Assembly (NCBI GenBank): GCA_030525785.1
Contig: JAUNEA010000001.1
Location: 62,001-126,000 of the forward strand
Reading direction: 5' to 3'
Source: Cardiobacteriaceae bacterium
Lineage (GTDB): Bacteria; Pseudomonadota; Gammaproteobacteria; Cardiobacteriales; Cardiobacteriaceae
Length of the DNA: 64,000 nucleotides
Every line of letters starts with the position of its first letter. Positions within the stretch are counted from its first letter, which is position 1. This document shows, piece by piece, positions 3,992-44,083 of this stretch. A program made the translations under genes and the position numbers. The notes below the pieces were generated by a model, which did not search any database, had not been told where the DNA came from, and saw nothing but the letters and a program-made list of their open reading frames with translations.

Positions 3992-4201
3992 ATGTCAAAC
4001 CCCAAAACCGCTCAATGTCAACTTGATGCCGCGAAATCTTACCAAGCCAAAGCGCTTGAAACGTTTAAAATGCTCATAAGCCAACATGACCAAGATGTAT
4101 TTGACGCCCTCCAATCCATCAAAGCCCATCATCAGGGCAATCGCTCAGGCGCGGTCAAAGCTGCTATTTTGCATTATGCTCAAAGCTTAGAGTCTCAATA
4201 A
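3992..4201 (+). CDS. Small accessory phage protein downstream of the Ibs-like peptide
   Basis: The 69-residue product has an AACGAGG ribosome site and starts 81 bp after the Ibs-like frame. The C-terminal part (GNRSGAVKAAILHYAQ) would suit a small helical DNA- or protein-binding fold, perhaps ribbon-helix-helix-like, but I cannot assign it. Its stop overlaps the end of the tape measure gene, so the two genes converge. A truncated paralog lies at 45-182. The first 30 bp overlap the candidate antisense-RNA promoter. Confidence 0.6.
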   Translation: MSNPKTAQCQLDAAKSYQAKALETFKMLISQHDQDVFDALQSIKAHHQGNRSGAVKAAILHYAQSLESQ

Positions 4202-7200
4202 GCTCTTCTTTTAGCGGCGTTATAAAGCTCTTGTGCAAAGTGTTGTGCGCCGCGTTTTTCCGCCTCTTGAATCCGTTTATCCCACGCGCTCGCGACTTGC
4301 TCCGCTGACAAAGCGCTTTGGGTTTCTTGCTCTGCTGAGGGCTTCGCCCCCACACCCCCAGCAGGGGACGTGTCCCCTGCACCCCAGCCTTTGGTTTTTC
4401 GTTCAGCCTCTTGCTGTTTACGCGCGGCATCTTGTTTGTTTTGTTCAGCGTGGATTTGGCGCTGTAGCGCGAGGGCGCGTTCGTATTCCGCGACTTCATC
4501 ACGATTGCCGCGCCCCAAAGCGCTTTGACGTTTCTCTTCCAAAGCTTGCAGCTCTTTAGCTTGCTCGAGTGCGCGTGCTTTAGAATCATCGCCCTTGAGG
4601 CTAGACAATTTCGCTTCCAGCTCGTCCGCCGTGTCTTTGGCTTCATCACGCAAAGTTCCAAGCTTTTCACGCGCTTTATCAATGCTTTGATTCAAGCGTG
4701 ATAAGGTTGCTTTATCGAGCAGTGAAAAAGCGCTTTGGGTTTTCTTTGTGATAGCCTCTAAATCACTCATGGAAAGGGTGCCATCTTGAATTTTGCCCTC
4801 CAATGCCTCAATTTCTTCATTAGCTGCACGCATTTGTTTGGATAACTGGCTGATATGTTTAGCGAGATTATTCGCAACTTGCGCCGTTTGCCTCCCCACA
4901 AACGCTTTAAAAAACGCCTCTTCCCAGCGTCTGGCATGGGTTTCAAGCTCGGCGATTTGGTCTTTCAGCAGTCCTTGTTTTTGATACAAGCGTATAACCG
5001 TTGTCTCCGATTGCTCGCCTGCTTTTTTCACACTTTCCGCCACTTTTTCAACCGCTTTCGCGTTCTCCAAAGCGCTTTGGCTTGACGCTTGGTGGGCTTG
5101 AATTTGGGCTTGCGCGGTTTTTTGGCTTTGTTCGCTAACATTTTGATAAGCCAGCTCAATTTGCTTAACCGCTGCCGCGCCTCCCTGTGCGCCCACTTGC
5201 AAGACGTGCATTTGCTCGGTGGTCAAAAGTGCGGCGCTGCCTGTCTCCTGCAAAGCGCTTTGTAGTGCCTTGAAATCTTCGGCGCTGTTTAGGCTGGATT
5301 TAGCTCGCTCAAAAGCGCTTTGTACAGCTGTTGCGGTAAGCTCGCCAGACTCTTTCAAATAACCAAACCCCACGCGCCAGTTATCCACTGTCTCAGATAC
5401 ACCTGAAGAAAGACCGCGTTTAACATCTTCCAAAGACACCCCAAGCGATGCCAAAGCGCTTTGGGCTTGCTGTGCGCTATCCACCGCCTTTTGAGAGAAA
5501 TCTTTAAAGTTTTCCGCTGTTTGAATGACCTTGTCTGCTAAGCCAGTTGTGTGCGCTGTGCTTTCTTGCAAAGCGCTTTGCAAAAGTTTTTGCCCTTCAG
5601 CGCTTTGCCCGACCGCGTCACGCGCGGCATTGTAGGCACGGGCGAGTTGTTCTACGCTTTGCGTGTTGGTTGCCAGCACTGAAAAGGCATCAACGGCTTT
5701 TTGCGCTGATTCAGATACGCCCGTCTCAAATTCAGAAAACGACAAGCCCAAAGTCTCAAGCGCATCTTCATACTTGCTCCAATACTCAAGGTCCAGCGGC
5801 TTAACAATAGGCATAGCGCGAATGCTCTCGCCAAGCTTTTCAATCGCTTCTTCTGTTTCAGCGAAAGCCAAGCTGTTTTCTAGCCCAGCCTCTGTCATCA
5901 CTTCTAAAAAGGCTTGCAATGTGGCAATTTCGGCGCGTGCTGATCTCAAAGCGCTTTGGTAATCTTCTGCACTCAAGGTTTGCGTCTTCTGACTTTCTGT
6001 TGCCAAAGCGCTTTGTTTGGCAAGCGTTTCTTGTTGAGAAGCTAAGATTTCTGTTTCACGAGCAAGGCGAGCGCTGGCCTCTCTGCTGGTTTCAAACTGT
6101 GTAGCAACGTCTTCTAATGTTCGCTCTGTCACTAACGCATCAAGATAAGCCAAGCCGCGCGCAAGCTCATCGCCCAAAGCACGCGCCCAATCCGAACTCT
6201 CACGCAACCACGTCCCCAAGCTTTCGCCAACCTCAAATGCTGCAAACAAGGCAGTGGCTTTTTGTGTCCAGCTGACCAGCGTTTCCATGCGTGTTGCTAA
6301 GGTTTCCGTTGCCGTGCTGGCGTTCGTAAGCCCTGTTGTTGAGAGTGCGCCAGTAAGAGCATTCACGCCCGCCAAAGTGCTTTTAATCGCGAGCAATGAG
6401 GTTGCGAAAGCGGCAATCGTGGGGTGAGCTTTGGCTAATTCATTAAGCTCTTGAGTGAGTGCCGTAAATCCTTTTGCCGCGCCTTGAACAATAGGCAGAA
6501 ATTGGGTTCCGATCGTCTGCAAGAGATTATCAAGCGATGCTTCAGCGGCTTTAATTTGCGCTGAAGTTGTCGCTGAAGCTGCTGCAAACTCAGCATTCAT
6601 CGCGCCTGCGTTCTTTGCTTTGTCTGAAGTGAGCGCCAAAGCTTTTTGAAACTGGTCAAGGTTCTGAGTGAGCAGCGCAATATCGTCTGCATACTCTGCA
6701 CCGAAAAGCTTGCTGTTGATAATGGCTTGTTGTTGCTTGGGTAATTCAGCGAGTTTGCCCAAAAAGTTGCTTAAGGCTTGTTGCGGATTGGCAGCGATTT
6801 GTTGGGCGAGTTGGTCGGCGGATAATCCGATGCCTGCCAAAGCGCTTTGAAATTCTTTGCCCTGACTTTGGGCAGTCATCAGCTTTGTTAAAAGCGCATT
6901 GATGCCTGTCGCGGCCACCTCAGGCGATTTGCCCAGTGAAATCATCGCAGCAGCTAAGCTTGCTGCTTGCTCTTCTGCCAAACCAAACTGCCGCGCCGAA
7001 CCACCGATGCGCAGCATCGCCTCAACAATCTCGCGCTCTTTCGCTGCTGTGTTGTTGCCGAGCGTGTTAATGGCATCGCCCAGCTTTTCAACTTCTAAAA
7101 CAGGGATATTGAACACGTTCGCGAGTTTTGCGGCAGCATTGCCAGCCTCATCAGCTGTCATATTAAACGCAACCGACATTTTGCCCGCCATTTCTGAGAA

Positions 7201-7479
7201 TTTTGCTAATTCATCAATCGGTACGCCCAGCTGTCCACCTGCCGCCGCAAGCTCTGCAACGGCAACCGACCCCAGCCCCAAGTCCACGCCCAATTGCTGA
7301 ATCTGCTCATTGAGTTTTTGAAACTCTTCAGGCGTACCCTCAACAACTTTTTTCACACCCGCCATCGCGCTTTCAAAGTCAATCGCTTGTTTAATAGCCT
7401 TACCCAAGTCAGACGCCCCTACGGCGACTAAGGTACTGTTGAGGCTCCCAATACTGTTGCCTCCTAAATTTTGAGACAT
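4195..7479 (-). CDS. Phage tail tape measure protein (TP901 type)
   Basis: The 1094-residue product sets tail length by forming an extended helical ruler. Residues about 25-330 match the TP901 tape-measure core (FESAMAGVKKVVEGTPEEF, then GGQLGVPIDELAKF and GKSPEVAATGINALL). The rest is coiled coil, with a short hydrophobic stretch near residues 350-385. ATG 7479 is preceded by GGAGG. The DNA carries about 11 AAAGCGCTTT palindromes, mostly read as QSAL, and a GC-rich hairpin repeat near the 3' end. It starts a new unit, with a terminator and an ATCAACTC box just upstream. Confidence 0.95.
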   Translation of the reverse strand: MSQNLGGNSIGSLNSTLVAVGASDLGKAIKQAIDFESAMAGVKKVVEGTPEEFQKLNEQIQQLGVDLGLGSVAVAELAAAGGQLGVPIDELAKFSEMAGKMSVAFNMTADEAGNAAAKLANVFNIPVLEVEKLGDAINTLGNNTAAKEREIVEAMLRIGGSARQFGLAEEQAASLAAAMISLGKSPEVAATGINALLTKLMTAQSQGKEFQSALAGIGLSADQLAQQIAANPQQALSNFLGKLAELPKQQQAIINSKLFGAEYADDIALLTQNLDQFQKALALTSDKAKNAGAMNAEFAAASATTSAQIKAAEASLDNLLQTIGTQFLPIVQGAAKGFTALTQELNELAKAHPTIAAFATSLLAIKSTLAGVNALTGALSTTGLTNASTATETLATRMETLVSWTQKATALFAAFEVGESLGTWLRESSDWARALGDELARGLAYLDALVTERTLEDVATQFETSREASARLARETEILASQQETLAKQSALATESQKTQTLSAEDYQSALRSARAEIATLQAFLEVMTEAGLENSLAFAETEEAIEKLGESIRAMPIVKPLDLEYWSKYEDALETLGLSFSEFETGVSESAQKAVDAFSVLATNTQSVEQLARAYNAARDAVGQSAEGQKLLQSALQESTAHTTGLADKVIQTAENFKDFSQKAVDSAQQAQSALASLGVSLEDVKRGLSSGVSETVDNWRVGFGYLKESGELTATAVQSAFERAKSSLNSAEDFKALQSALQETGSAALLTTEQMHVLQVGAQGGAAAVKQIELAYQNVSEQSQKTAQAQIQAHQASSQSALENAKAVEKVAESVKKAGEQSETTVIRLYQKQGLLKDQIAELETHARRWEEAFFKAFVGRQTAQVANNLAKHISQLSKQMRAANEEIEALEGKIQDGTLSMSDLEAITKKTQSAFSLLDKATLSRLNQSIDKAREKLGTLRDEAKDTADELEAKLSSLKGDDSKARALEQAKELQALEEKRQSALGRGNRDEVAEYERALALQRQIHAEQNKQDAARKQQEAERKTKGWGAGDTSPAGGVGAKPSAEQETQSALSAEQVASAWDKRIQEAEKRGAQHFAQELYNAAKRRAY
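4338..4386. repeat. GC-rich hairpin repeat inside the tape measure gene
   Basis: GAGGGCTTCGCCCCC followed by AGCAGGGGACGTGTCCCCTGC gives two small stem-loops, close in sequence to the intergenic element at 43881-43929. It is in frame in the tape measure C-terminus (around GAGDTSPAGGVGA) and does not break the gene. Confidence 0.75.
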
Positions 7480-8835: not shown

Positions 8836-9276
8836 ATGAATTTTCATGAAATTGATTTAGAACAAATAGATAAAGATACTTTGGAGCGCTTGGTTATGAT
8901 TTTGAACTTAAAACAACTGGATATTACCAACGAAAAATTTAAGGAAGAACTGCGCCTGATGCGTGAACGCGATGCTTTGGAACGCCAGCGTTATGAACAA
9001 GAGCGCGAGGAAGCCAAAGCACGTTATGAACAGGAGCGCGAGGAAGCCAAAGCACGTTATGAACAAGAACGCGAGGAAAGAAACAAACGCCATGAAGAGG
9101 AACGCCAGCGTTACGAGCGCGAACGCGAAGAATCCAAAGCCAGAAGTGAAGCAGAGCTTTTAAGATGGCGAGCGGAAACCCGTAAATACAACATGGAGGG
9201 CTTACTGTATCCCTTCATTGCGGGGGCAACGATTATGGGAGCATTTGCAGCCTTGCTGAATTATCTGCGTCCTTAA
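8836..9276 (+). CDS. Coiled-coil protein with C-terminal membrane anchor (accessory gene)
   Basis: The 146-residue product has a short acidic N-terminus, then a charged coiled coil (about residues 40-112) with the tandem repeat RYEQEREEAKA, then a C-terminal membrane segment (about residues 121-143). Ribosome site CGGAGGG. It sits on the plus strand between two minus-strand late genes. Its C-terminus (RKYNMEGLLYPFIAGA) is similar in layout to that of 14236-14526 (RKVRMDWLLAPILAAV), so the two are probably paralogs on opposite strands. The function is unknown. Exclusion or an anchoring role are guesses. Confidence 0.65.
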   Translation: MNFHEIDLEQIDKDTLERLVMILNLKQLDITNEKFKEELRLMRERDALERQRYEQEREEAKARYEQEREEAKARYEQEREERNKRHEEERQRYEREREESKARSEAELLRWRAETRKYNMEGLLYPFIAGATIMGAFAALLNYLRP

Positions 9277-9289
9277 TGCCGACTTTCTT

Positions 9290-9679
9290 TTACGCTAAAA
9301 CAGAGGCAGGAGCGATCGCAATTCCAGACAAAGCGCTTGGGCTGGGTTCAGGGCCGATTTTTAAAAGTCTTGGATTTTTCACCACTTCTTTCAAAAAGCT
9401 GATGGCTTGCTGGTAACGTGCCTCAACAACGGTCGTCACGCCATCTTGGTGCAAATAATACCGCGCCATATCGCACACCTTAATCTTCAAAATCGGTGCC
9501 GTATGCACGATGGCATCACTTAAACCCGCGGCGCGTAAATAGCTTTTGGCTTCTGCTTCAGCGTCTAAAATAGCAGCCTTTAACACGTCTTCGTTGATGT
9601 GTTGGTAATGCTCGCGATCGGTGAGACGGATTAATTCCGCCTCGCCAAAGCGCTTTGTCAAATCATCGCGCGTTATCAT
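9290..9679 (-). CDS. DUF1320 / Mu gp36-like head-tail connector protein
   Basis: The 129-residue product starts at ATG 9679 (MITRDDLTKRFGEAEL), overlapping the capsid stop (ATGA). The start MITRDDL..RFG, a central DAEAEAKSYL and the ICDMARYYL-type helix are typical of the DUF1320 family, placed directly after the major capsid gene in Mu-type phages. KRF in the N-terminus is encoded by a palindrome copy. Confidence 0.85.
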   Translation of the reverse strand: MITRDDLTKRFGEAELIRLTDREHYQHINEDVLKAAILDAEAEAKSYLRAAGLSDAIVHTAPILKIKVCDMARYYLHQDGVTTVVEARYQQAISFLKEVVKNPRLLKIGPEPSPSALSGIAIAPASVLA

Positions 9680-10662
9680 GTCATCACCAAATCCCACACC
9701 AAATCAGGGCGCTTCACAAGTGGCAAAGGGTTAGATTGGGCGTAAAGCTCAAATCCTGCTTCATGCTTGAGTTTTTCGCGAGAAGCGTAATAAGGAAGCG
9801 CTTTGGTGTTCACTGTGCTGCTCATATTGGCAGGCGCAAAGTATTCAGCAAATGCATCTTTAAGACCTTTGGGCAAGAAAATGGCTTGATTGTCTTCAAT
9901 TTTTAAACCGCTCTCGTATGCTGTGGCGTATTGCACAAACTCAATGCCCGCGGTTACGAATCGCCCGTCAAAGCCATCATGCAACGTTTTAGCGCCTTGA
10001 TAACGAAGATAAATATCAAGCATGGACTTGTGGGCAATCAGTTTTTCAAAAAAAGACGTTGAACACAAACACACCCAACCGCTCACGCTCTCCGCGCCCT
10101 TTTGACTGCGCAAAGCGCTTTTCACGCGCTCAAATTCAAGCGTTAAATTCGCGTTGGAGGCATGGTTGATAGCAGCATTTTGACGACTCAAACCAAAGCG
10201 CTTATAAAGATCAACCAATTCACGCCCATCAGCATCAACGATTTTGCCTTGCAAAGCGCCCAGCATTAAATGCTCACGCGTGTATTCAATATCAGCTTTC
10301 ATCGCCGAAAGCTTATCATTGACCAGCTCTGCAACCGTTTGCGCTTGATTATTTGAACCTTGCCACGCCTGCACATTTTGCACATCGTCTGCATAAATAA
10401 CGTCTGTTTTAGGCAAGTGCAACATATCAAAATTGCCGATATGGTTGTATTCAATATCAACGCCATGACCTGTTGCGCCACGAGGCTGGTGGGGAACCAA
10501 GTTTAAGGTCTGATTTTTCTCGCCAACGCGCACGAATGTTGTGGTTTGAGGTTTGGGCGTGAAAATGCCTAAACTGCGGATAACCGTAGGCGTTGTGGGG
10601 ATTTTGTTAATGGCTTCTGTCATCGGGCGGACGCCAAAATGACTTTCACTGGATAGAGGCAT
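9676..10662 (-). CDS. Major capsid protein, lambda gpE family
   Basis: The 328-residue product has an ATG with GGAG upstream. The C-terminal signature YAQSNPLPLVKRPDLV and the central REHLMLGALQGKIVDADG match the lambda E-type (HK97-fold) capsid family. Mu itself uses gpT, so this prophage combines a Mu transposition core with an E-type shell. Palindrome copies give KRFG and KSAL here. It forms the head with the protease/scaffold encoded upstream. Confidence 0.88.
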   Translation of the reverse strand: MPLSSESHFGVRPMTEAINKIPTTPTVIRSLGIFTPKPQTTTFVRVGEKNQTLNLVPHQPRGATGHGVDIEYNHIGNFDMLHLPKTDVIYADDVQNVQAWQGSNNQAQTVAELVNDKLSAMKADIEYTREHLMLGALQGKIVDADGRELVDLYKRFGLSRQNAAINHASNANLTLEFERVKSALRSQKGAESVSGWVCLCSTSFFEKLIAHKSMLDIYLRYQGAKTLHDGFDGRFVTAGIEFVQYATAYESGLKIEDNQAIFLPKGLKDAFAEYFAPANMSSTVNTKALPYYASREKLKHEAGFELYAQSNPLPLVKRPDLVWDLVMT

Positions 10663-10712: not shown

Positions 10713-11141
10713 CTACGGCAAGCTCGGCGGCTCTACCTGAGGTGGAGAGGGGGGCGATGGCTGAGGTAATGTTTGAACTTGCTCTAAGCGCTTTTGCAGT
10801 TTTTCAACGCCAATATAGGTAATGCCAAGCGCTGTGCCTGAGGCGAGCAGTTTTTGCAACAAATCCTGCGGTTGCTCTGCATTAAAATGGCCGTATTGGG
10901 GATTAAGCGAACCGTGCATTTTCAAATGCTCAGGCCTTAAATGCGAAAGATCGACCACACACGCGCTGGGCTGAATCAATACTTTGCCGTGTTCACTGTT
11001 AGACAAAGCCACCAGCAAATGCATTTCTTGATACGCCACCAGCTCGCCAATCTTCACGCCTTCCAACAAAGCGCTTTGACGTTGGTTGGGGTCTGATTCA
11101 GATTTGAGCAAATCACCAAGTGAGAGTTCTTTGTGAGTCAT
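10713..11141 (-). CDS. Putative head protein between protease and capsid genes
   Basis: The 142-residue product has GGAGG before ATG 11141 and ends in a Pro/Ser-rich tail (about residues 125-142). It occupies the place of a head decoration or accessory protein, just before the capsid gene, but I do not recognise the family. The first 74 bp of its coding region and its leader are duplicated at 11521-11612. Confidence 0.55.
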   Translation of the reverse strand: MTHKELSLGDLLKSESDPNQRQSALLEGVKIGELVAYQEMHLLVALSNSEHGKVLIQPSACVVDLSHLRPEHLKMHGSLNPQYGHFNAEQPQDLLQKLLASGTALGITYIGVEKLQKRLEQVQTLPQPSPPSPPQVEPPSLP

Positions 11142-11150
11142 CGCGCCTCC

Positions 11151-11282
11151 TTAAATGCCCATCAACGCCAAATCAAATAAATCCAAAACCTCAGGCGTGA
11201 GCTGGTGGGCTTGAATATTCTGCAAATGTGGGAAAATTTCTTTTATGATTTCAAGGTAATTCTGTTGATGATGTGAGGTCAT
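11151..11282 (-). CDS. Short paralog of the 11604-11951 protein
   Basis: The 43-residue product (NYLEIIKEIFPHLQ... ending DLALMGI) matches the two ends of the 115-residue protein at 11604-11951 (HYLKLLRELYPQL... ending LELALIGI), so it looks like an internally shortened copy. Ribosome site AAGGAACC. Its ATG overlaps the start codon of the divergent lipoprotein gene. The function is unknown. Confidence 0.55.
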   Translation of the reverse strand: MTSHHQQNYLEIIKEIFPHLQNIQAHQLTPEVLDLFDLALMGI

Positions 11283-11487
11283 GATGGTTCCTTTAAACGA
11301 TAAAATGAAACAGGGTTTATGGTTGTTGGGGGCGTTGTTTTTGCTGTTGGTGTTGGCGATGTGCGGCGAAAGGGACAACACGGACTACCAAGCGCTTTGC
11401 GCCGAAGGCAAAATCCAAACCGCCAACACCAACACCTACCGCCTGCGTTTTGAACTGCATTGCCCACCGCCAGAAAACGCTAAATAA
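11281..11487 (+). CDS. Small lipoprotein, copy 1 (accessory gene)
   Basis: The 68-residue product has a basic N-terminus, a hydrophobic stretch and a lipobox-like LAMC, followed by a short Cys-containing domain (CAEGKIQTANTNTYRL...C). The start may be 11281, 11284 or 11305; GAGGT suits 11284. It is antisense to the late operon and divergent from 11151-11282. It is similar to copy 2 at 11973-12158. Phage lipoproteins of this size often act in superinfection exclusion, which is a guess here. Confidence 0.6.
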   Translation: MMVPLNDKMKQGLWLLGALFLLLVLAMCGERDNTDYQALCAEGKIQTANTNTYRLRFELHCPPPENAK

Positions 11488-11612
11488 AAGCGCTTTGCTG
11501 GGCTTTATCGAGCGAGAGCAAAAGCGCTTTGGCGTTGGTTGGGGTCTGATTCAGATTGAAGCAAATCACCAAGTGAGAGTTCTTTGTGAGTCATCGCACC
11601 TCCTTAAATGCC
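11477..11612. repeat. Three-part mosaic duplication joined at palindromes
   Basis: Segment 11477-11497 equals 12148-12168 (21/21). Segment 11487-11532 equals 12296-12341 (46/46) from the scaffold coding region. Segment 11521-11612 matches 11068-11159 without gaps and with few mismatches (start of the head gene). The overlaps of neighbouring segments are exactly the AAAGCGCTTT copies at 11487 and 11521, so each seam is a palindrome. Confidence 0.9.
11505..11594 (-). pseudogene. Duplicated 5' end of the 10713-11141 gene
   Basis: It encodes MTHKELSLGDLLQSESDPNQ and nine more residues with the same ribosome site as the parent, then enters a fragment of the scaffold gene out of frame and stops. 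It is a by-product of the mosaic duplication. Confidence 0.8.
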
Positions 11613-11951
11613 GATTAAAGCCAACTCAAGGGCAGAACGCCATTTAAGAGCGATGGTCTGAGTTAAAAAGCGATAACGGTGATTGCTGTTAAGGATTTCA
11701 ACAATATCCAAAGTGGCTCCCAGAAGGGCTTTGGAGAAATCGTAAGGATTTTTGGCAAGAAACAGGTCAAGCGCTTTGCTGGCAAGATAAGCGGTTAAAG
11801 CGATTTGCTTGGTTGTTTCTATGAGTTCCCGCATCAAACCATCAAGCATATCGGCAACATCATGATTAATATGGTGAATTTGATAATGGTTGAGCTGTGG
11901 GTACAATTCTCGCAAAAGTTTAAGATAATGCTCTCGGCTTTCTGTGTTCAT
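11604..11951 (-). CDS. Phage protein of unknown function, divergent partner of a lipoprotein
   Basis: The 115-residue, mainly helical soluble product is placed between the protease gene and the duplicated head-gene fragment. Ribosome site CCTAGGAG. A 43-residue shortened copy lies at 11151-11282, and each copy is divergent from a small lipoprotein gene, so the pair (helical protein plus lipoprotein) has been duplicated as a unit. The function is unknown; one could guard or regulate the other. Confidence 0.6.
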   Translation of the reverse strand: MNTESREHYLKLLRELYPQLNHYQIHHINHDVADMLDGLMRELIETTKQIALTAYLASKALDLFLAKNPYDFSKALLGATLDIVEILNSNHRYRFLTQTIALKWRSALELALIGI

Positions 11952-11972: not shown

Positions 11973-12158
11973 ATGGAAAAATGGCTTAAGCCTTTGCTGT
12001 TGGCTTGGTTCTGCTTTGCTTTATTGCTATTGGCAACGTGTTCTTCTGTGAATCAAGAGAATGCTAAGCGCTTTGAAGAGGCGTGTGCCAAAGCGCACGA
12101 TGGCAAGATTTATACGCGATATGCTATTGGTGGCATTACTTGCCATGACGCTAAATAA
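11973..12158 (+). CDS. Small lipoprotein, copy 2 (accessory gene)
   Basis: The 61-residue product has a signal anchor (about residues 7-22) and lipobox-like LATC. The tail (CAKAHDGKIYTRYAIGGITCHDAK) parallels copy 1 (DGKI/EGKI, second Cys, ending AK). Ribosome site GGAGGG. Its stop overlaps the 3' end of the protease/scaffold gene. The two Cys residues of the mature domain could form a disulphide. Its role is probably in the cell envelope; superinfection exclusion is a hypothesis. Confidence 0.6.
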   Translation: MEKWLKPLLLAWFCFALLLLATCSSVNQENAKRFEEACAKAHDGKIYTRYAIGGITCHDAK

Positions 12159-13053
12159 AAGCGCTTTGTTTGGCGCGTTGTTCAGCATCTTGAAGCAAGG
12201 GATTGTCTGAAAGCTTGACATCAGGAGTATTCAAAGCGCTTTGGTGCGGTTCAAATAAGGCTTTCGGTGCTGCTTTGGGTGCTAAATCAGCGAGCAAAGC
12301 GCTTTGCTGGGCTTTATCGAGCGAGAGCAAAAGCGCTTTGGTGTTATCAGATAAGCCCAACCATTGCCCCTTGGCATCTTTTTGAAACCCACGTGCGGAA
12401 AGTTCAGCGTTTAGGTCTTGCTCACGTTTTGCTTGTTCTTTTTCTTGCTCAAGTTTTTGTTTTTCGGCGGCGAGGGTTTGGATTTGGTTTTTAAGATTGG
12501 CAATTTCAGCCAAGGCTTCTTCAAGATTCATCTGGTTTTCCTTTGGGTTAAAAGATTCTGATAAAACAACAGCATGGGTGTGATTATCCACACCTGTTGG
12601 CGTAAAACTCACTTCGCGCACCAAGCAGTTGCGATAAATAGCGATTTCGCCGTGTACGGTTTGACCGTTCACCAAAGCGCTTTGCCCTGCCTTGATTTCG
12701 TCAATGCGCGTGGGCTGAAGATGGGCAGAGAGTTGCCATGGGAAACCCTCGTCAGCATCTTGCGAGACCGTTTTGCCGTGTTCGTTAGAAAGCAGCGTGC
12801 CTGCGATGATTAAGCCGTCAGCGCCAAGCGTAAGACGCGCCACGCCTGCGCGCTTCTGGCGATCGTGTTCAATGAGTACGGGAATTTGTTCGGCAAACTG
12901 CAAAGCCGATAAATCAACAACGCAACGCTTGCCGTTGTGGACAAATGGCTTGCCCGAATGCGCCACGCCTGCAAAAGTGCGCGGGCTGGCGTTGGGGGTG
13001 CCTGCATCAAGTGCAGCGAGTTGTAACGACGCTGAAAGCAATAAAGAGGACAT
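12151..13053 (-). CDS. Phage head maturation protease with nested scaffold (Mu gpI-like)
   Basis: The 300-residue product begins at ATG 13053 with GGAG upstream; the frame is open further but without a ribosome site. Residues about 30-165 carry the Mu-I protease pattern (KRCVVDLSALQFAEQIPVL, then a helix ending in REVSFTPTGVDNHTHAVVL). From about residue 175 the protein is coiled coil (QTLAAEKQKLEQEKEQAKRE), typical of scaffolds. An in-frame ATG at 12531 with AAAGGA would give a 126-residue scaffold alone, like Mu Z inside I. Confidence 0.85.
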   Translation of the reverse strand: MSSLLLSASLQLAALDAGTPNASPRTFAGVAHSGKPFVHNGKRCVVDLSALQFAEQIPVLIEHDRQKRAGVARLTLGADGLIIAGTLLSNEHGKTVSQDADEGFPWQLSAHLQPTRIDEIKAGQSALVNGQTVHGEIAIYRNCLVREVSFTPTGVDNHTHAVVLSESFNPKENQMNLEEALAEIANLKNQIQTLAAEKQKLEQEKEQAKREQDLNAELSARGFQKDAKGQWLGLSDNTKALLLSLDKAQQSALLADLAPKAAPKALFEPHQSALNTPDVKLSDNPLLQDAEQRAKQSAFI

Positions 13054-13108
13054 GGCTTGGTCTCCAAAAACGACAAAGCGCATTGTGTGGCGATGGGGGG
13101 CAAGCCAT

Positions 13109-13116
13109 GAGTTGAT
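13109..13116 (-). promoter_or_regulatory. ATCAACTC box before the protease gene
   Basis: The minus-strand box lies 56 bp before ATG 13053 and left of the terminator at 13249-13276, so it could start the head-gene unit. Confidence 0.4.
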
Positions 13117-13248
13117 GACCAAACAAAGCGCTTTTTCATCACACCGTTCAAAATCACGCCCCCCCCTAAACCTTGTTTAAAACCTTTTTAAAATCGCCCC
13201 CATTTATTTAAAAATTTTGGACAAGGGGGTAAGCCTCACCCCAAAGCA

Positions 13249-14570: not shown

Positions 14571-16175
14571 CTACTCGCGCGGTTCAGGCAGGGTAAAACT
14601 TTGCGCTAAAGCGCTTTGGGCAGAGCTGGTGGCTAAAGCCCAAAGCATATGCAAAGCGTCTGGCCCATCGTCGTGGTCGGCTTTGGGGAAGTGGCGCAAT
14701 TGCTCCAGCAAAGCGCTTTGTTCTGGCTTGAACAGGATTAAGCCGTTGGCAATATGTGGCTGTAGGGATTCAATGCGCAGCATTTTATCGGCGTTGGGCG
14801 TAACCGCACGCGCTGGCACAGGATTGCCGCGCAAAGCGCTTCGTTTCACCAGTTCTGTGCGCAAAAATTCTTGAAACTGCACTGCTTCCACTGCCCATAC
14901 CTGACAACGATAGCGCTCATGAAATGCCATGACATCTTCAATAATGCGATCAGGCAAGCGCTTTTTGATGCTCGCCTCCAGCACAAACAGCTTGCCCGTT
15001 GTCGTTTGATACGCGCCCACCACAATAGCCGATGGGTCGCGCCCTGTGCCATGTTTGCCGAGTGATGGGTCTACCGCGCCGAAAGTGAGGCAGTCGTGCG
15101 GCAGATCGCCGTAAAACTGCATACAATCTGCAAATGGCGCATCATCGCTACTTACGGGGTCATTTTGCAATTCTGTGTCGAAATTTTGATGCCCTTCTTT
15201 CGCGCGGATACGCATCAGTTCATACAGCGGACGCGATGCCCACGAAACCACCGCTCCTTTGTCCATTTCTGCTTGGTTTTCAAGGTAAAATCTTTCTGCT
15301 GCGGCATCGCCTTCACTGTGAAAAATCGCCTCGAACTCGTCCCAGAGCGCCATATTATCAGGATAAACACAAAGCGCTTTGAACAGCGCCGTTTTCCAAC
15401 CTTTGTTTTTTAGAACACGATTTAAAACAGAGTCGTAATGCAAAATCGTGCCAATGTAAAACACGTCAAACTTTTCGCCCACCGCTCCAAGCTTCATCAC
15501 CGTTGCATTCAACCAGTTTTGCAGCTTGTCGCGCTGCTCAGGTTTGCGCACGTTCTCATCGTTCTCGAGGTCGTCCAAAATCACCAAATCAGGGCGATAC
15601 GCGCCATGCACAAAACCCCGAAGCGCTTTGGCAGCGCCTGCCATTTGGATTTTTACGCCGTTTCGGGTGATGATTTTTTCCACTTGCCACACGCTGCCCT
15701 CGCCAAAACATTCAGGAAAATCAATCTTAAGGCGCGGATTGGCTTCCAGTTCTGTTTTGATCGCCGCCAGAAATTCTGCCGCTTGGTCTGAGGTGTTGGA
15801 GATGATGACAATGTAGCGCTTTTGTGACGTTATCGCGCAGTACAAGCTAAACAAACGCGTCACAATGGTTGATTTGGCTTCACCGCGCGGAGCAGCGAGC
15901 GCATAGCTTTCTGAACGCGGCGATTTGAGCATCGCTGGCAATTGTGCAAATAAATACTCATGCATCAGACTTTGGTTTTGATGGCGCAAATAGTGTGGAA
16001 AATAATTTTTGACAAAATATTCAAAGCCGTGTGTTTTATCGAACACTTTGGCATGCCGCGCTTCAATGGCGGTTTTGCGGTCGTCCCAACCCTCAAAAGA
16101 GGCTTCAATTTGCTGCTTCAAAGCGCTTTGTAATTCCGCTAAACGCTTATTGAATTCCTGCTGCTTCATGCTCAT
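14571..16175 (-). CDS. Phage terminase large subunit
   Basis: The 534-residue DNA-packaging motor has an ATPase half with a Walker-A-like APRGEAKST (residues 95-103) and Walker B LVILDDLE (197-204), and an RNase-H-like nuclease half with acidic residues in FGAVDPSLGK, VWAVEAVQF and DHDDGPDALHML. This is the TerL type found in many transposable phages. The start may be ATG 16175 or 16169; both have weak ribosome sites. About six palindromes lie inside. The portal normally follows but is displaced to 19516-20664. Confidence 0.93.
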   Translation of the reverse strand: MSMKQQEFNKRLAELQSALKQQIEASFEGWDDRKTAIEARHAKVFDKTHGFEYFVKNYFPHYLRHQNQSLMHEYLFAQLPAMLKSPRSESYALAAPRGEAKSTIVTRLFSLYCAITSQKRYIVIISNTSDQAAEFLAAIKTELEANPRLKIDFPECFGEGSVWQVEKIITRNGVKIQMAGAAKALRGFVHGAYRPDLVILDDLENDENVRKPEQRDKLQNWLNATVMKLGAVGEKFDVFYIGTILHYDSVLNRVLKNKGWKTALFKALCVYPDNMALWDEFEAIFHSEGDAAAERFYLENQAEMDKGAVVSWASRPLYELMRIRAKEGHQNFDTELQNDPVSSDDAPFADCMQFYGDLPHDCLTFGAVDPSLGKHGTGRDPSAIVVGAYQTTTGKLFVLEASIKKRLPDRIIEDVMAFHERYRCQVWAVEAVQFQEFLRTELVKRSALRGNPVPARAVTPNADKMLRIESLQPHIANGLILFKPEQSALLEQLRHFPKADHDDGPDALHMLWALATSSAQSALAQSFTLPEPRE

Positions 16176-19401: not shown

Positions 19402-19515
19402 GGAGGAGTTTGTCAACTGGGGACAAAGCGCTTTATGCCGTAGGCTTCAGTTTTTTGCAACAGGATAAACATGTGTCAAACAACCACCAAAACCAGCCTT
19501 TGATGGAGGCGCGTG

Positions 19516-20664
19516 ATGATTAAAAATGCCCCATCGCTTAAGGCGCTAACCACCAACCTTGATGCCAACCTAGACACCAATGATGGCAGCCTTGACGACT
19601 TAATCGCTGAGACAGGCAAAAGCGCGTTAGAAATCTTGAGCTTTTGCTTATCCGATGACGAGGTCGAGAGTTGCCGCGAGGATTTGTTTGCCGCGATGAT
19701 GGCACGTCCGTTTCGGATTTGGGGCGAGGGTGTGGACGAGGTGACGATTAACCGTCTGTACCGCATCATGCAAAGCGCTTTGCCTGTCTTTATCGATTTG
19801 GCGATTGTGTCCAAATTATACGGTTACGCGGTGGCGGAATACGTTTATCGACAAGATGCCGACGGTTTTTTGAGCCTCAAGCAAGTGCACTCCAAAGACG
19901 GCTTACTCGATCGCTACCAGCCCAAAGCCGATGGACTGTGGTATCAAGGTGATAACGGAGAGGAGCTTTTGGACCAACAACTTAAATTTTTGTTGCTGAC
20001 CCACAAAGCCACGCCATCGCGCCCCAAAGGCGAGATAAGCATTATCCGCCTCTATCCTGCCGTGCAATTGCGTAAACGAGTAATGGCGTACGCGGGGCAA
20101 TTTGTGCGCCGTTATGCGCAACCGTATGTGGTCGGCAAGCAAGCAGGCTTTGCACCGCTGACCGATTTTGTCAAGCAACTGTTTGGATTTTCCAACGGTG
20201 GCGCGGCAGCCATTGGCAAAGACGATGAGATAACACTGCACCAACTGCAAGGCGATGGCGAGGCATTTGCCAAACTTGAGCGCATTGCCAATGCGCGGAT
20301 ACAAAAGCTGTTGCTGGGGCGCGTCAAAACCTCCGACCTCCAAAACGCCAGCCGTGCCGCGCAAACGGTCGAAGAAGCCACGCGCAACGAGCGCATCGGC
20401 GGCTATCTCTTGATGTTGAGCAATGCCATGCAACACGCTATCGATGCGATGTTGCGCGTGAATCAGCTGTACGGCAAGCCTATTCACGCACCGCAGGGGG
20501 TGTGGTTTGAGTTTCAGACGCCAGCGGCGGTTGATATCGCACGCGCCGAGCGCGATGCCATCTATTTGCAAAATGGCGTGACTTTAACGCGCGAGTATTA
20601 TCAAAACATGGTGGGATTGGAAGAATCGCACTTTGAGATAAACGCCTCATCTGGCTTGGATTAA
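19516..20664 (+). CDS. Portal protein, DUF935 (Mu gp29-like), inverted
   Basis: The 382-residue product starts at ATG 19516, 7 bp after GGAGG. Segments FCLSDDEVESCREDLFAAMMARPFRIWG, RRYAQPYVVGKQAG and the C-terminal TREYYQNMVGLEE are typical of the DUF935 portal family. Only a few hundred bp of a gpF-like remnant follow. In related phages the portal follows the terminase on the same strand; here it is on the opposite strand and about 3.3 kb from the terminase, so the block has been inverted and moved. Confidence 0.9.
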   Translation: MIKNAPSLKALTTNLDANLDTNDGSLDDLIAETGKSALEILSFCLSDDEVESCREDLFAAMMARPFRIWGEGVDEVTINRLYRIMQSALPVFIDLAIVSKLYGYAVAEYVYRQDADGFLSLKQVHSKDGLLDRYQPKADGLWYQGDNGEELLDQQLKFLLLTHKATPSRPKGEISIIRLYPAVQLRKRVMAYAGQFVRRYAQPYVVGKQAGFAPLTDFVKQLFGFSNGGAAAIGKDDEITLHQLQGDGEAFAKLERIANARIQKLLLGRVKTSDLQNASRAAQTVEEATRNERIGGYLLMLSNAMQHAIDAMLRVNQLYGKPIHAPQGVWFEFQTPAAVDIARAERDAIYLQNGVTLTREYYQNMVGLEESHFEINASSGLD

Positions 20665-21180: not shown

Positions 21181-24100
21181 TTAGGATAAATCCAGCGTGT
21201 TGCCACGCAAGCAGGTGGTGATGCCGTCTTTTTGGCTGTGGCGATTGCTGGAGGGTTGCACTGCGCGAATCAACCACACAGGCACTTGCGTGCCAAAAGT
21301 ATTAAAGCGAATGAGATTACGCGCCGCCCAGCCGCGTCCGAATGCCCCTTTGGGCAGGGTGAAATACGGCGTGTTGGTGGACGGATTAATCGGCGCTAAG
21401 TCGCTGAAAATATTGCCTTCAAACACCAAGCCCAAACTTTCGCCGATTAAATCAAAAGCGCTTTCGGTTTTAAACTGAATCGCCCAGCGCTGGGTAATCG
21501 CGCCCAAGCCATCGAGCTGGAACGGGTGATTGCGCACATCGAGCTGCGCCAAAAGTGGATCAGCCGTGCGCTGGTCTGACCAGCGTTTGTCCCACGCTTG
21601 CTGGCTAAAGGGTTCTGAAACGCGTACCATCAAATCGCCACCCATCAAGGCATTGGAAACCATCGTCTCTCCTGCCTTAAACGCAATATCCAGCGGAAAT
21701 TGCAGGGTTAATTCGCCTGAAATATCCACGCCAACCACGCGGTTCTCGCGTTCAATGGTGTGGAAGGCGGTGAGCGGCATCTGGTAGGGCGACAAATCCA
21801 GCCCTGTGCTGCTCCATGTTATCGCGCCTGCCTCTAAATCCACCGTATAAAGCTCAGGCGAAAGCGCTTTGCCACCAGCATCTTTGAGGCAGACTTTTGA
21901 AAGCCCAGCACGAGAGAGTTTGACGGTTTTGCCGCTTTGATGCGCCGCGCCCAGTCCGTCTTTTTTGAGATGAGACAACACAACCATATCGCCCACCGCA
22001 ACCCACGGCACGCGCCCATCAATCGGCAAACGCACGGCATTAATGCCAATCTGGCGCGAATCAAGCGGCAAATAACTGTAGCTGATGGCGCTGAATTTAA
22101 TCGTATCAGCGTGAACGTAAATGGGCTGCCAGATGTTGCCTTGCGCGTCTACGTTTTCTGCTACAAACCACGGCTCGCTCTCTTTGCCTGCTGCTTTCAC
22201 CATTTTGCCAAACCGCGCCGTCACCACGCCGAATTGTTCGTGAACCTTGCCTGCAACCTCTGCTCCTTCCAAAGCGCTTTGTTTGTTTAGCACAGCTTTT
22301 ATCTCGCCACCGCCGAGTTTTACTGCGGTGAGCGTGAGCGATTGCGGACGAATCGGAGCCACTGGCACGCGGAAGGTGACTGCATCGACAGGTGTATGGT
22401 TCAAATAAGTGGCAAGGCTTTCAAGCTTTAAGCTTGCAGGGTCGCCGATAAAATCCTCCAAAAGCGCTTTGCCCGTGTGGTAATTGATTTGCCCACAAAG
22501 TCTTGCCTCGCCTGTGGGCTGGTGGTCGGTGTAAATCGCGCCACGGCGGTCGGTGTAGCGTTTGCCTGAAATCGCAAACGACACCGTGCCTGCTTTGATT
22601 GGCTCAGCGTGATTGGGCAACAAATCAAGGCTTAAGTCTTTTAAAATCAAGGTTTCTTGCTTGGCTTCCAAAGCGCTTTGGCTGCGGTATTTCACTTCAA
22701 CCTTAAAACTTTCATCAATCGGCGCTGTGGCTGCCGCTGGCACGTACTCAAGCTCGGTGAAAAGATTGCGTGCAAAGCGCTTGACTGTTTCCGTACCATC
22801 GCCGTTGTTTACCACTTCCTCGCCCACGACTTGTGGGGAGAATTTTGGTTTGGGAATGGTGACGGTGGTGTCTGGATTAAAGCTGATTTTACCGCTGGCG
22901 TAATCGATTGAGCCAAAGCGCTTTGCATTCGTGTCTAACAAATTGCCGTTACCATCGTCAAACACGGTAATGTAAGGATCGACTGGGAAGGTTTGAGTAG
23001 GCTTACGCTCTTCGCTAAGCAGATAAACCGTTGAAGCGTCATAATCTTGGATTAACACATTCCAGACCATTGAAAAGCTGCGCGGAGCAATGGGCTTTTG
23101 TTCAAGCGTCACATTCACAGCGCCCGTGTGATCGCGCAAGGGGGCGGTAAAACTTTGGGCTTTGGGTTCGCCGCTTTGATAGTTTACGCTGAGTTCAAGG
23201 TTGCGACTTTTGTGGTAACCGTTGGGGTTTAAAAGGATTTTGCCTGTGGGGTAATGGATGGTGCCTGATAGCTTGCCTGTGAGATTGCCCACGCCATCAT
23301 CGCTGATTTGGTGGTCGCCGTGGTCATCAGTAAAGCTGATGTTTAGACTGCTCGGCGCAACGGGCGCATCTTTAAGCTGCAGCTCATAAAGCGCTTTGGG
23401 CTTGGAGTCGTGGCGCTTTTCAATCGAAACCTTGCTCCCCCAAGTAAACAAAATACTTGAGCCCACATCAGGCAAGGCACCGCATTGCACATAAATCTCG
23501 CCTGTGACAACATTCACAAAGCCAGATCCATGATTGGGATTGCGCCCACGCAACGCGCCTGTGCCGTCATCGATTAAATCGTACCACACCCCTTGTGCGC
23601 GATAAGATACTTGTGTACTGCCTAAAGCAGGCGCTGGATTAACGGTAATTGTGTGGTTAAACGCTTGGTTATTGATCGAAATTTCTTTACTCGCCGAATC
23701 TGAAACGCGTTCAATAACAGCCGCTGGTTTGAATGAAGCTCTTGAATCGTACAAATGATAACTTCCGCCCAGACTTCTTAACACGCCGTGCGCGTAATCA
23801 ATACTGCCTACCGTCTCATCTCCACGCTTGAGATTGCCCGCCCCATCATCTTTGATTTGATTATAAGTATCCGTGTAACTGCCCGGCATGATGCCGCAGC
23901 CCACGTGATACGCTGTATTTTGATTTAACACGCCACTGGTGAAAATCTTCATGCTTTCGCCTGCTTCAAGCAAAAGCGCTTTGTTGCCTGCGGCGTTTAA
24001 GCCCAACATTGGCGTTTCCGTTTGCGCCGTTGGCACGATTTTTTCAAACAAGCCGTTGGTGTGGATTTTTAAGTCGCCAGCTTTGGCATCTTGAGAAAGC

Positions 24101-27467: not shown

Positions 27468-28343
27468 TTAATCGATGAGCATTTGCGCGTAACGCTCGAT
27501 AAAAGCGCTTTCAATGGGGCGCTGATTAATCATTGAAAGCCGATACACGCCCTTCAATAACTTTGAAAGCCTTCTTGTGTTGCCTTTTGAGAATTTGTAA
27601 AGTTCTTGATTAAAATCAGATGTTTGCAAAGCGCTTTGGGCGATTTGAGCGCAATCCTCTAAACTGATTTTGTCTTTCAAATCTAAGCAGCAGCCCACGC
27701 GGCTATAAAGCTGTTTGTACTCGCCACGCGAGCCGCGCAAATTAGCGCGCAATCTCGGCATACCTGCCAAGACCAAGCCAACGCCAGCTTTATCATGAAT
27801 ACGGCGCAGGATTTCCAACGGTTGATGCGCGAGTAGCTCCGCTTCATCAACAATAATTAAACGATTAGAATCTTTGAGTTTTTCAACCACCGCATCAAGC
27901 ATGGCGGCATTGGTGCGCTCTGCTCGTAACCCCAGCTTTTCACAAAGCGCTTTGAGTAAAGTTTTAGCCGTGTAAGTGGGGTCTATTTCTAGCATGATGA
28001 CATGGCTATGGTTTTCAGCGTAATGTTTCAGCGCAACGGTTTTACCAAGCCCAGCTTCTCCGATAACCACGTGACACTCATTCATCGCGTGCGCTAAACC
28101 AACAATCTCAAGAATGCGAGCGGCTGTTTTGGTTTTGACAAACACAAACTCCAAAGCGCTTTCTTTTGCAAGCTTCTCGCGCTTAATCATGTCAACCACC
28201 GCTTTATCAAGCTTTGAAACATCGCCCTGATATTTGTTTTGCAAGTACTGATTGACGGCTGCTACAGAAACGCCGAGTTTTTGAGCTATTTCCGCTTGCG
28301 TCAGATGGTGCTTTTCGATATACTTTTTGAGTTCTTTTTCCAT
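27468..28343 (-). CDS. B: Transposition target-DNA activator, Mu B-like AAA ATPase
   Basis: The 291-residue product has an N-terminal Cro-like HTH (residues about 12-35: HLTQAEIAQKLGVSVAAVNQYL), Walker A GEAGLGKT (95-102) and Walker B LIIVDEAEL (162-170). Mu B (312 residues) binds target DNA, delivers it to transposase A and confers target immunity. Gene order A-B is conserved. Confidence 0.95.
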   Translation of the reverse strand: MEKELKKYIEKHHLTQAEIAQKLGVSVAAVNQYLQNKYQGDVSKLDKAVVDMIKREKLAKESALEFVFVKTKTAARILEIVGLAHAMNECHVVIGEAGLGKTVALKHYAENHSHVIMLEIDPTYTAKTLLKALCEKLGLRAERTNAAMLDAVVEKLKDSNRLIIVDEAELLAHQPLEILRRIHDKAGVGLVLAGMPRLRANLRGSRGEYKQLYSRVGCCLDLKDKISLEDCAQIAQSALQTSDFNQELYKFSKGNTRRLSKLLKGVYRLSMINQRPIESAFIERYAQMLID

Positions 28344-28502: not shown

Positions 28503-30464
28503 TTATGGCTGTTGATCGCTGGCAAAAAGTAATATTTCAGCCTCCTCTTTTACAGGGTTAAAGGTTTGCCAATCTAAGTCACCCACCAAAGCGCTTAAAT
28601 CTTCCTGTGCCTGCAGCTCAATCGCTGGTCGTAGCTCAGCTTTGGCTTTGCGTGCCTCATCTTCGAGGCGTTGCAACTTGCGTTCGGCGCGTTTTTGGCG
28701 TGATTGCTCAATCAGGGATTGGGCAAAAGCAGGTGCCGTGTTGCCGTTTAATTGCGCCTCACAGAGGTAGCGTCCATCTAAATCGCGGACAATCACCGTG
28801 CGTGGGTCGTGCTGATCCACCAGCATCAACACCTCTTGCTCGTTCAAAGCTTCCAAATGGTTGTGCCAGTAGTGCTGATTAAATAAGGTCAGCCAGCCAC
28901 GTTGTACCTTGCGTTTAAAGGCTGGGCGGAACAATTCTTTGGCTTCCCATTCGGATAACATCACAACATCATCGTCAGGATAAAGCGCTTTGAGTTCTTC
29001 GCGCCGCTGAAAAGGCGTGCATTTAAGCTCTGAATGCTGATGATGATGGTTGTAGTTATCCACAGATTCTTGAATCACGGTGAGTAACTCGCGCCATTTC
29101 GGTAGCTTGCCCAAAGCGCTTTGCTGTTTTAGTGTCAGCTCGGTGCGTTTTTCCGCAATCGCTTTGGATAACGACACTGTGGCTTGGCTGATTTGACGTA
29201 CAGCATCACGGTCTGCCCCTGTGCCGTAATAAGTCTGAAATCTTCTCGCGATCGGATAAGCCAAAGTTTGCATCACGCGCTCAATAATGCCGCGCCCCTG
29301 TGGGTTGCCCGGTATCCCCGTTTGATGGTCAATGCCCAAGCGGTGCAAAATCCCTGTTAAATCAGCGTCCAAAATTTTTGAAGTTTGACCAGCGCCATTG
29401 TCTGAATAGTAAAGCGCTGGAATGCCGTGATTTATCATAGCGTTACGCAAAGCATCAGCGACCGCAAAGGTATTTTCACTGTACGCCAAGCTCCAACCCA
29501 CAATGTAGCGACTCGCTGCGTCCATAATCAGCGTGAGTTCAGGCGTAAACGGCTGTCCGTGTTCGGGGTGTGCCACTTTCATCTTCAAACTATGACCATC
29601 GCCCACCCAGACATCATTATTATGTAGCACCGACCAATCGCGTTTGGTGTAGGTCGCCATCGCTCGCAAAGCGCTTTGCCCTTTACGCCCACGCTCGCGC
29701 ACCAAAGGTGGGATTTTGCGCATCACTTGACGCACCAAGTGTTCTGACGGCAAGGACTGATGCGGATATAGGCCTGCAAAACGCAAGGCAAAATTGCGAT
29801 AAGCCTCCGCCAAGGGAATCCCTGTAAATACCTGATAGCATTCCAAAAAATCTGGTAGCCAAAAATACTGCGACAAGGATTTTTTCGACCGACCACAACC
29901 TACAGGCGCAAAAGTTAAGGTGGTTTGCACCAAACCTTGACAGCGCTCCGACTGACAAAGCCATTCGTTCAACGTCCGCACGCCAATCCCATTGCCTGTA
30001 TTGCGTGCCAATGCCTTGGGCAAAGCCTGAGCAATGTTTTCAGGCAAGCGACCTTCGCGACTCTCGCGGCTCACACGCTCCAACGTCACACGACGTTTGT
30101 CGCCTGATTTTAAAAGCGCTTTGATGTAATCCACCACCAACAGTCGCGCCTCAACCGTCTCGCGCTGTTTATCGGTTAAAGCACTCATGCGCTTCGCCAC
30201 TTGCTTGTCCGCTGCAACCCTCTGCTCCCGTGCTGCTTTCGCCTCCGCCAAAGTGCTTTCTGCCAGCGTCAAAGCCTCTCGCTCCGCCAATGCACGCTGG
30301 ACTTCAAGGGGGAGGGAGGTAATCAAGTATTCGTACACGTTGCCTTCTGCATTGGGTTTTCTTCGTCGTATCCAGTTTTCGCGTTTTGCTTTTTGGTTAA
30401 TACCTTGTACTGTGCTTGGCAAAGTATTAACGCTCATCAATTCAACTATTGTTACCCATTTCAT
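28503..30464 (-). CDS. A: Mu-type DDE transposase A
   Basis: The 653-residue product is near Mu A length. It has an N-terminal Mu-type HTH (residues about 1-60), then end-binding domains, then the rve catalytic core with Asp289 (VGDGH), Asp355 (YSDNG) and Glu395 (IIERV), and a C-terminal B-interacting region. All three acidic residues are present. I chose ATG 30464 with GAGGTGG upstream; it overlaps the ner stop (TGATG). It should perform strand transfer for replicative transposition. Confidence 0.96.
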   Translation of the reverse strand: MKWVTIVELMSVNTLPSTVQGINQKAKRENWIRRRKPNAEGNVYEYLITSLPLEVQRALAEREALTLAESTLAEAKAAREQRVAADKQVAKRMSALTDKQRETVEARLLVVDYIKALLKSGDKRRVTLERVSRESREGRLPENIAQALPKALARNTGNGIGVRTLNEWLCQSERCQGLVQTTLTFAPVGCGRSKKSLSQYFWLPDFLECYQVFTGIPLAEAYRNFALRFAGLYPHQSLPSEHLVRQVMRKIPPLVRERGRKGQSALRAMATYTKRDWSVLHNNDVWVGDGHSLKMKVAHPEHGQPFTPELTLIMDAASRYIVGWSLAYSENTFAVADALRNAMINHGIPALYYSDNGAGQTSKILDADLTGILHRLGIDHQTGIPGNPQGRGIIERVMQTLAYPIARRFQTYYGTGADRDAVRQISQATVSLSKAIAEKRTELTLKQQSALGKLPKWRELLTVIQESVDNYNHHHQHSELKCTPFQRREELKALYPDDDVVMLSEWEAKELFRPAFKRKVQRGWLTLFNQHYWHNHLEALNEQEVLMLVDQHDPRTVIVRDLDGRYLCEAQLNGNTAPAFAQSLIEQSRQKRAERKLQRLEDEARKAKAELRPAIELQAQEDLSALVGDLDWQTFNPVKEEAEILLFASDQQP

Positions 30465-30670
30465 CACGCCACCTCGTAACGTTCTGCCCAAATTTCGCAA
30501 GGCTGCACCCCAATGGCTTCTGCAATAATGCGCTCTCCTTTCGGATAACGCATGCGCAAAGCATTCTTAAGTGTCGCGGGTGCCAATCCCGCTTGCACAC
30601 TCAAGGCACTTAACGTTAATCCTCGTTCGGCAAGCTCGTATTTAATCCGTGCGTTGCTCCAATTTTTCAT
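30464..30670 (-). CDS. ner: Ner-like regulator
   Basis: The 68-residue HTH protein (IKYELAERGLTLSALSVQAGLAPATLKNAL) is typical of the Ner/Nlp family that turns down early transcription and the repressor gene in Mu. ATG 30670 has GGAGG upstream. It is the first gene of the early operon, divergent from the repressor gene. Confidence 0.92.
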   Translation of the reverse strand: MKNWSNARIKYELAERGLTLSALSVQAGLAPATLKNALRMRYPKGERIIAEAIGVQPCEIWAERYEVA

Positions 30671-31944: not shown

Positions 31945-32203
31945 CCCTCATTGTGGGGGCTTTGTTTTGGGGCACTGTTTTGCCAAAGCGCTTTGGCTAA
32001 TCTTCCTCTCGCGTTTGCGGTGGAGCTAGCCCAAATCCAGCGTGTTGCCACGCAAGCAGGTGGAGATGCCGTCTTTTTGGCTTTGGCGATTACTGGAGGG
32101 TTGCACGGCACGAATCCATCACACAAGTACTTGTGTGCCAAATGTATTGAAACGAATGAGATTGCGTGCCACACAGCCCACGCCCAAACGTTGCAAAATA
32201 TTC
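31945..32203 (-). pseudogene. Diverged duplicate of the 3' end of the large tail gene and its terminator
   Basis: CCAGCGTGTTGCCACGCAAG and the following ~150 bp match 21190-21350, and the preceding GGGGGCTTT hairpin and palindrome match 21136-21178. The copy has many substitutions and no open frame of length. It ends at the stop of the first host gene. It is a relic of an older prophage or of a rearrangement of this one. Confidence 0.8.
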
Positions 32204-43862: not shown

Positions 43863-43880
43863 AGATTAGGTTCTTTATCT

Positions 43881-44051
43881 CGGGGCTTTGCCCCGAACCC
43901 CAGCAGGGGCATGATGCCCCTGCACCCCGCAAAGTATTTTAAAAAGTAAAACCCCCACCAAAACTTTGTTTTGCGTGGGGGTTTTACTTTTTAATGCTCT
44001 GGGGTCAAGGGGTGTAACACCCCTTGTGGGGGCTTGGGGGTGAAATCCCCA
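43881..44051. repeat. GC-rich hairpin cluster between mnmG and the adhesin gene
   Basis: One element (43881-43929: GGGGCTTTGCCCC, then AGCAGGGGCATGATGCCCCTGC) and one inverted relative (44001-44051: AAGGGGTGTAACACCCCTT with flanking GGGG runs) bracket a strong terminator. The first closely resembles 4338-4386 in the tape measure gene. Confidence 0.8.
43941..43992. terminator. Bidirectional terminator with 18-bp perfect stem
   Basis: AAAAAGTAAAACCCCCAC pairs perfectly with GTGGGGGTTTTACTTTTT, with A and T runs at both ends, between convergent mnmG and the adhesin gene. Confidence 0.95.
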
Positions 44052-44083
44052 AATAAATAGCCCTCATCTCAAAGCGCTTTGTG

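Follow-up and report, generated by a model that had tools for sequence, protein, structure and literature searches.

Three duplicated blocks joined at copies of an iterated palindrome in a Mu-like prophage

Two versions of a small cassette between head genes

The window, by which we mean the whole stretch of 64,000 nucleotides analyzed here, comes from the draft genome of a Cardiobacteriaceae bacterium (1.6 Mb in 18 contigs). It contains the following prophage genes, with strands given where they matter for the locus:

4195-7479, tape measure gene
9676..10662, - strand, major capsid protein gene (Phage_cap_E; Pfam PF03864, E=2.3e-73; PHROG major head protein)
10713..11141, - strand, gene X, an ORF of 142 aa between the protease and capsid genes
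11151..11282, - strand, short Z ORF of cassette 1 (43 aa), homologous to the N-terminus of the long Z
11305..11487, + strand, small putative membrane protein of cassette 1 (60 aa), from its translation
11604..11951, - strand, long Z ORF of cassette 2 (115 aa; PHROG 4513, unknown function, E=3.4e-6)
11973..12158, + strand, small putative membrane protein of cassette 2 (61 aa)
12151..13122, - strand, gene Y, head maturation protease (PHROG 3244, E=1.5e-25)
14571-16175, terminase gene, from Pfam and PHROG searches
27468-28343, AAA partner of the MuA-type transposase (AAA match)
28503-30500, MuA-type transposase (Mu-transpos_C and HTH_Tnp_Mu_1)

The prophage encodes a MuA-type transposase together with its AAA partner, the pair by which we recognized Mu-like transposable phages, and the stretch that concerns us (11477-11612) lies within a Mu-like prophage. 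Gene X matched no family in Pfam or PHROG. It is located just upstream of the capsid gene, in the position of a decoration protein, and this position suggests a putative role of that kind. A portal-like ORF at 19513-20664 is on the + strand, the other head genes of the prophage being on the - strand. No Rfam family was detected in the window.

About 1 kb separates the protease gene Y from gene X, and this interval holds two diverged versions of one cassette, each made up of a Z ORF on the - strand and a putative small membrane protein gene on the + strand. From low to high coordinate, the order is X, short Z, small protein 1, Y tail / X start, long Z, small protein 2, Y. The two cassettes align only as distant protein homologues. 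The N-termini of the short and long Z are homologous (alignment score reached by 0 of 500 shuffles), and the 60-aa and 61-aa proteins show weak similarity (score reached by 1 of 500 shuffles). The 61-aa protein (11973-12158) also has 57% identity, including a conserved cysteine pair, to the product of a chromosomal gene (G000:C11:240340-240522) that adjoins DNA glycosylase-like and panC-like genes.

In five distant relatives from IMG/VR (L005-L009, protease identity at most 47%) the protease gene abuts the next head gene and the cassette is absent. The gene order there is protease, a short or mid-sized head gene and capsid, the capsid gene of L005-L007 being assigned by position only. A relative with a single cassette was not found among 40 related genomes, IMG/VR, phage records and one GTDB genome scan; these searches returned distant protease relatives only (at most 47% identity) or nothing.

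Three blocks share 11 bp at each of two seams

The stretch at 11477-11612 is a composite of three duplicated blocks, all in direct orientation. The blocks, their seams and their source regions are listed below; the palindrome mentioned is AAAGCGCTTT.

11477..11497, block 1, equal to 12148-12168 (21/21)
11487..11497, seam 1, AAAGCGCTTTG common to blocks 1 and 2
11487..11532, block 2, copy of the Y tail with a 138-bp in-frame gap, equal to 12296-12341 (46/46, the next base differs)
11521..11531, seam 2, AAAGCGCTTTG common to blocks 2 and 3
11521..11612, block 3, copy of the X start including ATG and ribosome-binding site, 88/92 against 11068-11159 with no gaps
11068..11159, parent of block 3, X start and upstream sequence, beginning at the palindrome 11068-11077
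12158..12339, Y tail, with palindromes at 12158, 12233, 12296 and 12330

The first-pass annotation of this DNA had reported all three correspondences, and our counts agree with it. It had further stated that neighboring blocks have nothing but copies of the palindrome in common. This proved correct except for the shared length, which is the 11 bp of AAAGCGCTTTG at each seam and not 10 bp.

Block 3 carries a truncated reading frame of 29 aa; its match to the X start fades by 11629, the extended match being 101/109. In the Y tail, the interval 12158-12296 (138 bp, 46 codons) is absent from the scar copy. The scar version reads KALLLSLDKAQQSAFI*, and intact Y reaches the same ending after 46 additional residues, so that the C-terminal QSAFI and stop are retained after the 46-codon gap. 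No inversion was seen at the composite locus.

We compared the flanks of all palindrome pairs of the window in both orientations (38,364 comparisons). At the ends of the 46-bp block the exact flank matches run for 36 and 34 bases; no other comparison of the 38,364 exceeds 10. Blocks 2 and 3 are therefore far beyond chance. Block 1 extends 10 bases beyond the palindrome, the third longest of the 38,364, and the rest run 9, 8 and 7; on its own this match is weak. It is supported because both copies form the last codons and stop of a + strand small-protein gene.

Palindrome abundance is sufficient for the two seams

The window contains 139 copies of the palindrome AAAGCGCTTT, where 0.47 would be expected, and the 1.6-Mb genome contains 3149 (against 3 for the reversed control), which places it far above genome-wide expectation, as in HIP-like repeats. 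The 11 other family genomes contain 0-72 copies, and among the genomes compared the iteration is confined to this genus. No description of the motif as a genome-wide repeat was found among 20 titles from the 24 papers containing the string. For HIP-like palindromes one looks for an orphan methyltransferase that acts on an internal sequence. One C5 methyltransferase was found and was considered as a possible enzyme for the palindrome; its gene adjoins a second ORF, as in a restriction-modification pair.

About 2% of bases lie within a palindrome, and the chance that two random breakpoints both fall on one is near 5e-4. Short-homology events, however, depend on homology. We therefore listed the exact direct repeats in the window that are at least 11 bp long and lie 60-1500 bp apart. 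Of these 526 repeats, 377 contain the palindrome and 55 more contain its core AGCGCT (432 in all, 82%). The corresponding share is 77% over 543 kb, taken as stretches, on which the genome statistics rest. Given the 82%, two seams would both be expected on the palindrome about two times in three, and therefore its abundance is enough to account for both and no special property is needed at the composite locus. The proposal that the palindrome served twice as the crossover point is borne out to the extent that both joins fall on it and that these are genuine recombination seams. The further proposal, that it acts as a special seam in either orientation, does not follow from this evidence: most local repeats contain the palindrome or its core, every block is in direct orientation and, as described next, three other local duplications break elsewhere.

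Three other resolvable local duplications in the sampled genome have breakpoints that do not fall at a palindrome: a 33-bp tandem at 8989-9078, a 144-bp tandem at C12:10887-11230 and the pair that begins at 21188 and 32033. The last is a 146-bp direct duplication (21188-21333 and 32033-32178, 88% identity) that copies the 3' end of a prophage gene coding for 1209 aa. Its duplicate at 32033-32178 is close to the end of the prophage, flanked by the transposase gene and by a gene resembling carnitine acyltransferases.

Most of the dispersed hairpin elements inspected are bounded by the palindrome

Self-comparison of the 543 kb exposed a family of hairpins. These are dispersed cruciform-like elements of about 200-250 bp, with one copy in the window (43851-44080) and further copies elsewhere (for instance, L049, L051, L054, L060, L061 and L082). 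The folding energy of one copy is -169.8 kcal/mol (z = -17.9). Among 31 inspected copies, 27 are flanked on both sides by AAAGCGCTTT, compared with 3.7% of random 180-bp segments, where a flank was counted if a palindrome with at most one mismatch lay within 60 bp on each side.

The arms between palindrome and core are locus-specific, yet complementary within a copy (14.4 of 20 positions within a copy, 6.0 between copies), and they differ between loci even where the cores are 97-99% identical. Two copies, at C6:11377 and C17:64845, share their arms too (243 identities over 252-254 bp), and on each side their homology stops 3 bp beyond the palindrome. Two further loci, L087 (G000:C14:70250-71100) and L088 (G000:C7:33700-34500), are inside-out versions in which the right half is followed by the palindrome or palindromes and then the left half, the arrangement that circular permutation or an origin between two adjacent elements would give. 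A search for hairpins built on two palindromes but lacking the dispersed core, which could represent empty elements, gave nothing above chance. The elements are absent from the 11 other family genomes and match no Rfam family.

Origin of the composite stretch

Two joins, each at AAAGCGCTTTG, would explain the whole stretch. We think it probable that two related Mu-like phages recombined here by way of short homology (illegitimate or relaxed recombination) and that the stretch is the resulting scar. Each parental phage would have carried its own version of Z and the small membrane-protein cassette between Y and X. The AAAGCGCTTTG in the Y tail of one phage would have paired with the AAAGCGCTTTG in the X start of the other, giving the product X - cassette 1 - Y tail / X start - cassette 2 - Y with its junction at 11521-11531. 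The seam at 11487-11497 would record a 138-bp in-frame deletion in one Y-tail version, or an insertion in the other, between two AAAGCGCTTTG copies. What made the palindrome the joining point would be that most of the local homology lies in it, and not that it is palindromic. As expected of short-homology products, the presumed parents share few bases at the joins (11 bp at both seams). A ComEC-type competence gene is present in the source genome, which makes uptake of donor DNA a possibility. We infer the two parents, the order of events and the recombination pathway from these features. Because no single-cassette genome was found, the same applies to the parental arrangement and to the direction of the 138-bp change; no close relative with the unrecombined arrangement appeared in family genomes, IMG/VR or phage records.

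The head-to-tail repetition of the order X'-Z-small protein-Y' could also reflect a simple tandem duplication within one genome, running from the X start to the Y tail with its ends at palindromes, after which one cassette diverged or was replaced. This is quite improbable, given how the scar ends (still 96-100% identical) contrast with the cassettes, which are related only distantly. A single tandem duplication in one genome would therefore be insufficient, a second donor would be required anyway, and two phages are the simplest source. An assembly error that joined two related prophages might be suspected in a draft of 18 contigs with dispersed repeats at some contig ends. We consider this very unlikely, as the 11-bp overlaps are below the usual assembly overlap and a second such prophage was not found in the genome.

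A further alternative is that a protein cuts or binds AAAGCGCTTT, making it a dedicated site of recombination or template switching that acts as a seam genome-wide, as suggested for HIP1 in cyanobacteria (reviewed in PMC4390886). Site-specific recombination predicts the same core site at the joins, and AAAGCGCTTTG is present at both seams. The palindromes on both sides of most hairpin elements and the pair of copies whose homology ends 3 bp beyond the palindrome at either edge also point this way. The other local duplications break elsewhere, no inversion is seen, no recombinase was identified beyond the Mu-type transposase noted in the phage, and palindrome abundance alone predicts the seams at the composite locus; we regard a dedicated site as unlikely. 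It is mainly because of the hairpin elements that a seam role should not be dismissed: the repeated use of the palindrome at their boundaries leaves room for a more specific process. A special role elsewhere in the genome is possible but unproven.

Significance and comparison with known systems

Read as a product of short-homology recombination between two phages, the locus would be a readable fossil of a phage acquiring a second version of a cassette. It also illustrates that a word repeated every ~500 bp can steer the location of such recombination. A broader idea, that AAAGCGCTTT is a genome-wide HIP1-like seam where DNA preferentially breaks, re-primes or rejoins, is in our view doubtful. 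If true, it would yield both prophage seams as well as the palindrome-bounded hairpins with their mutually inverted, locus-specific arms, and the hairpin elements make such a seam role worth testing. Should the palindrome be used beyond its share, an iterated palindrome would have a role in recombination outside cyanobacteria, and the old question of the function of highly iterated palindromes would become directly testable.

The seams are of the kind known from phage mosaicism, in which genomes are reassorted by illegitimate or by relaxed homologous recombination (for instance, PMC3945230). The present locus resembles such mosaicism in its sharp joins between blocks of different ancestry, its temperate phage and the short shared sequence at the join. 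It differs in that the shared sequence is a word of the host genome repeated thousands of times, and in that two cassette versions stand side by side. The cassettes are also reminiscent of the morons of tailed phages. They consist of small genes, one of them on the opposite strand, and separate head genes that are directly adjacent in relatives (L005-L009), although here there are two versions of the cassette.

The hairpin elements are short, dispersed and strongly folding, like MITEs, REPINs and Correia elements, but the arms beside their flanking palindromes vary between loci and are complementary within each copy. For the palindrome itself, the closest likeness is to HIP1 (GCGATCGC) of cyanobacteria, which is likewise iterated thousands of times and has been linked to site-specific and illegitimate recombination; the repeat module SDR5, for instance, inserts precisely into HIP1 sites (reviewed in PMC4390886). 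The motif described here is AAAGCGCTTT, not GCGATCGC, in another host lineage.
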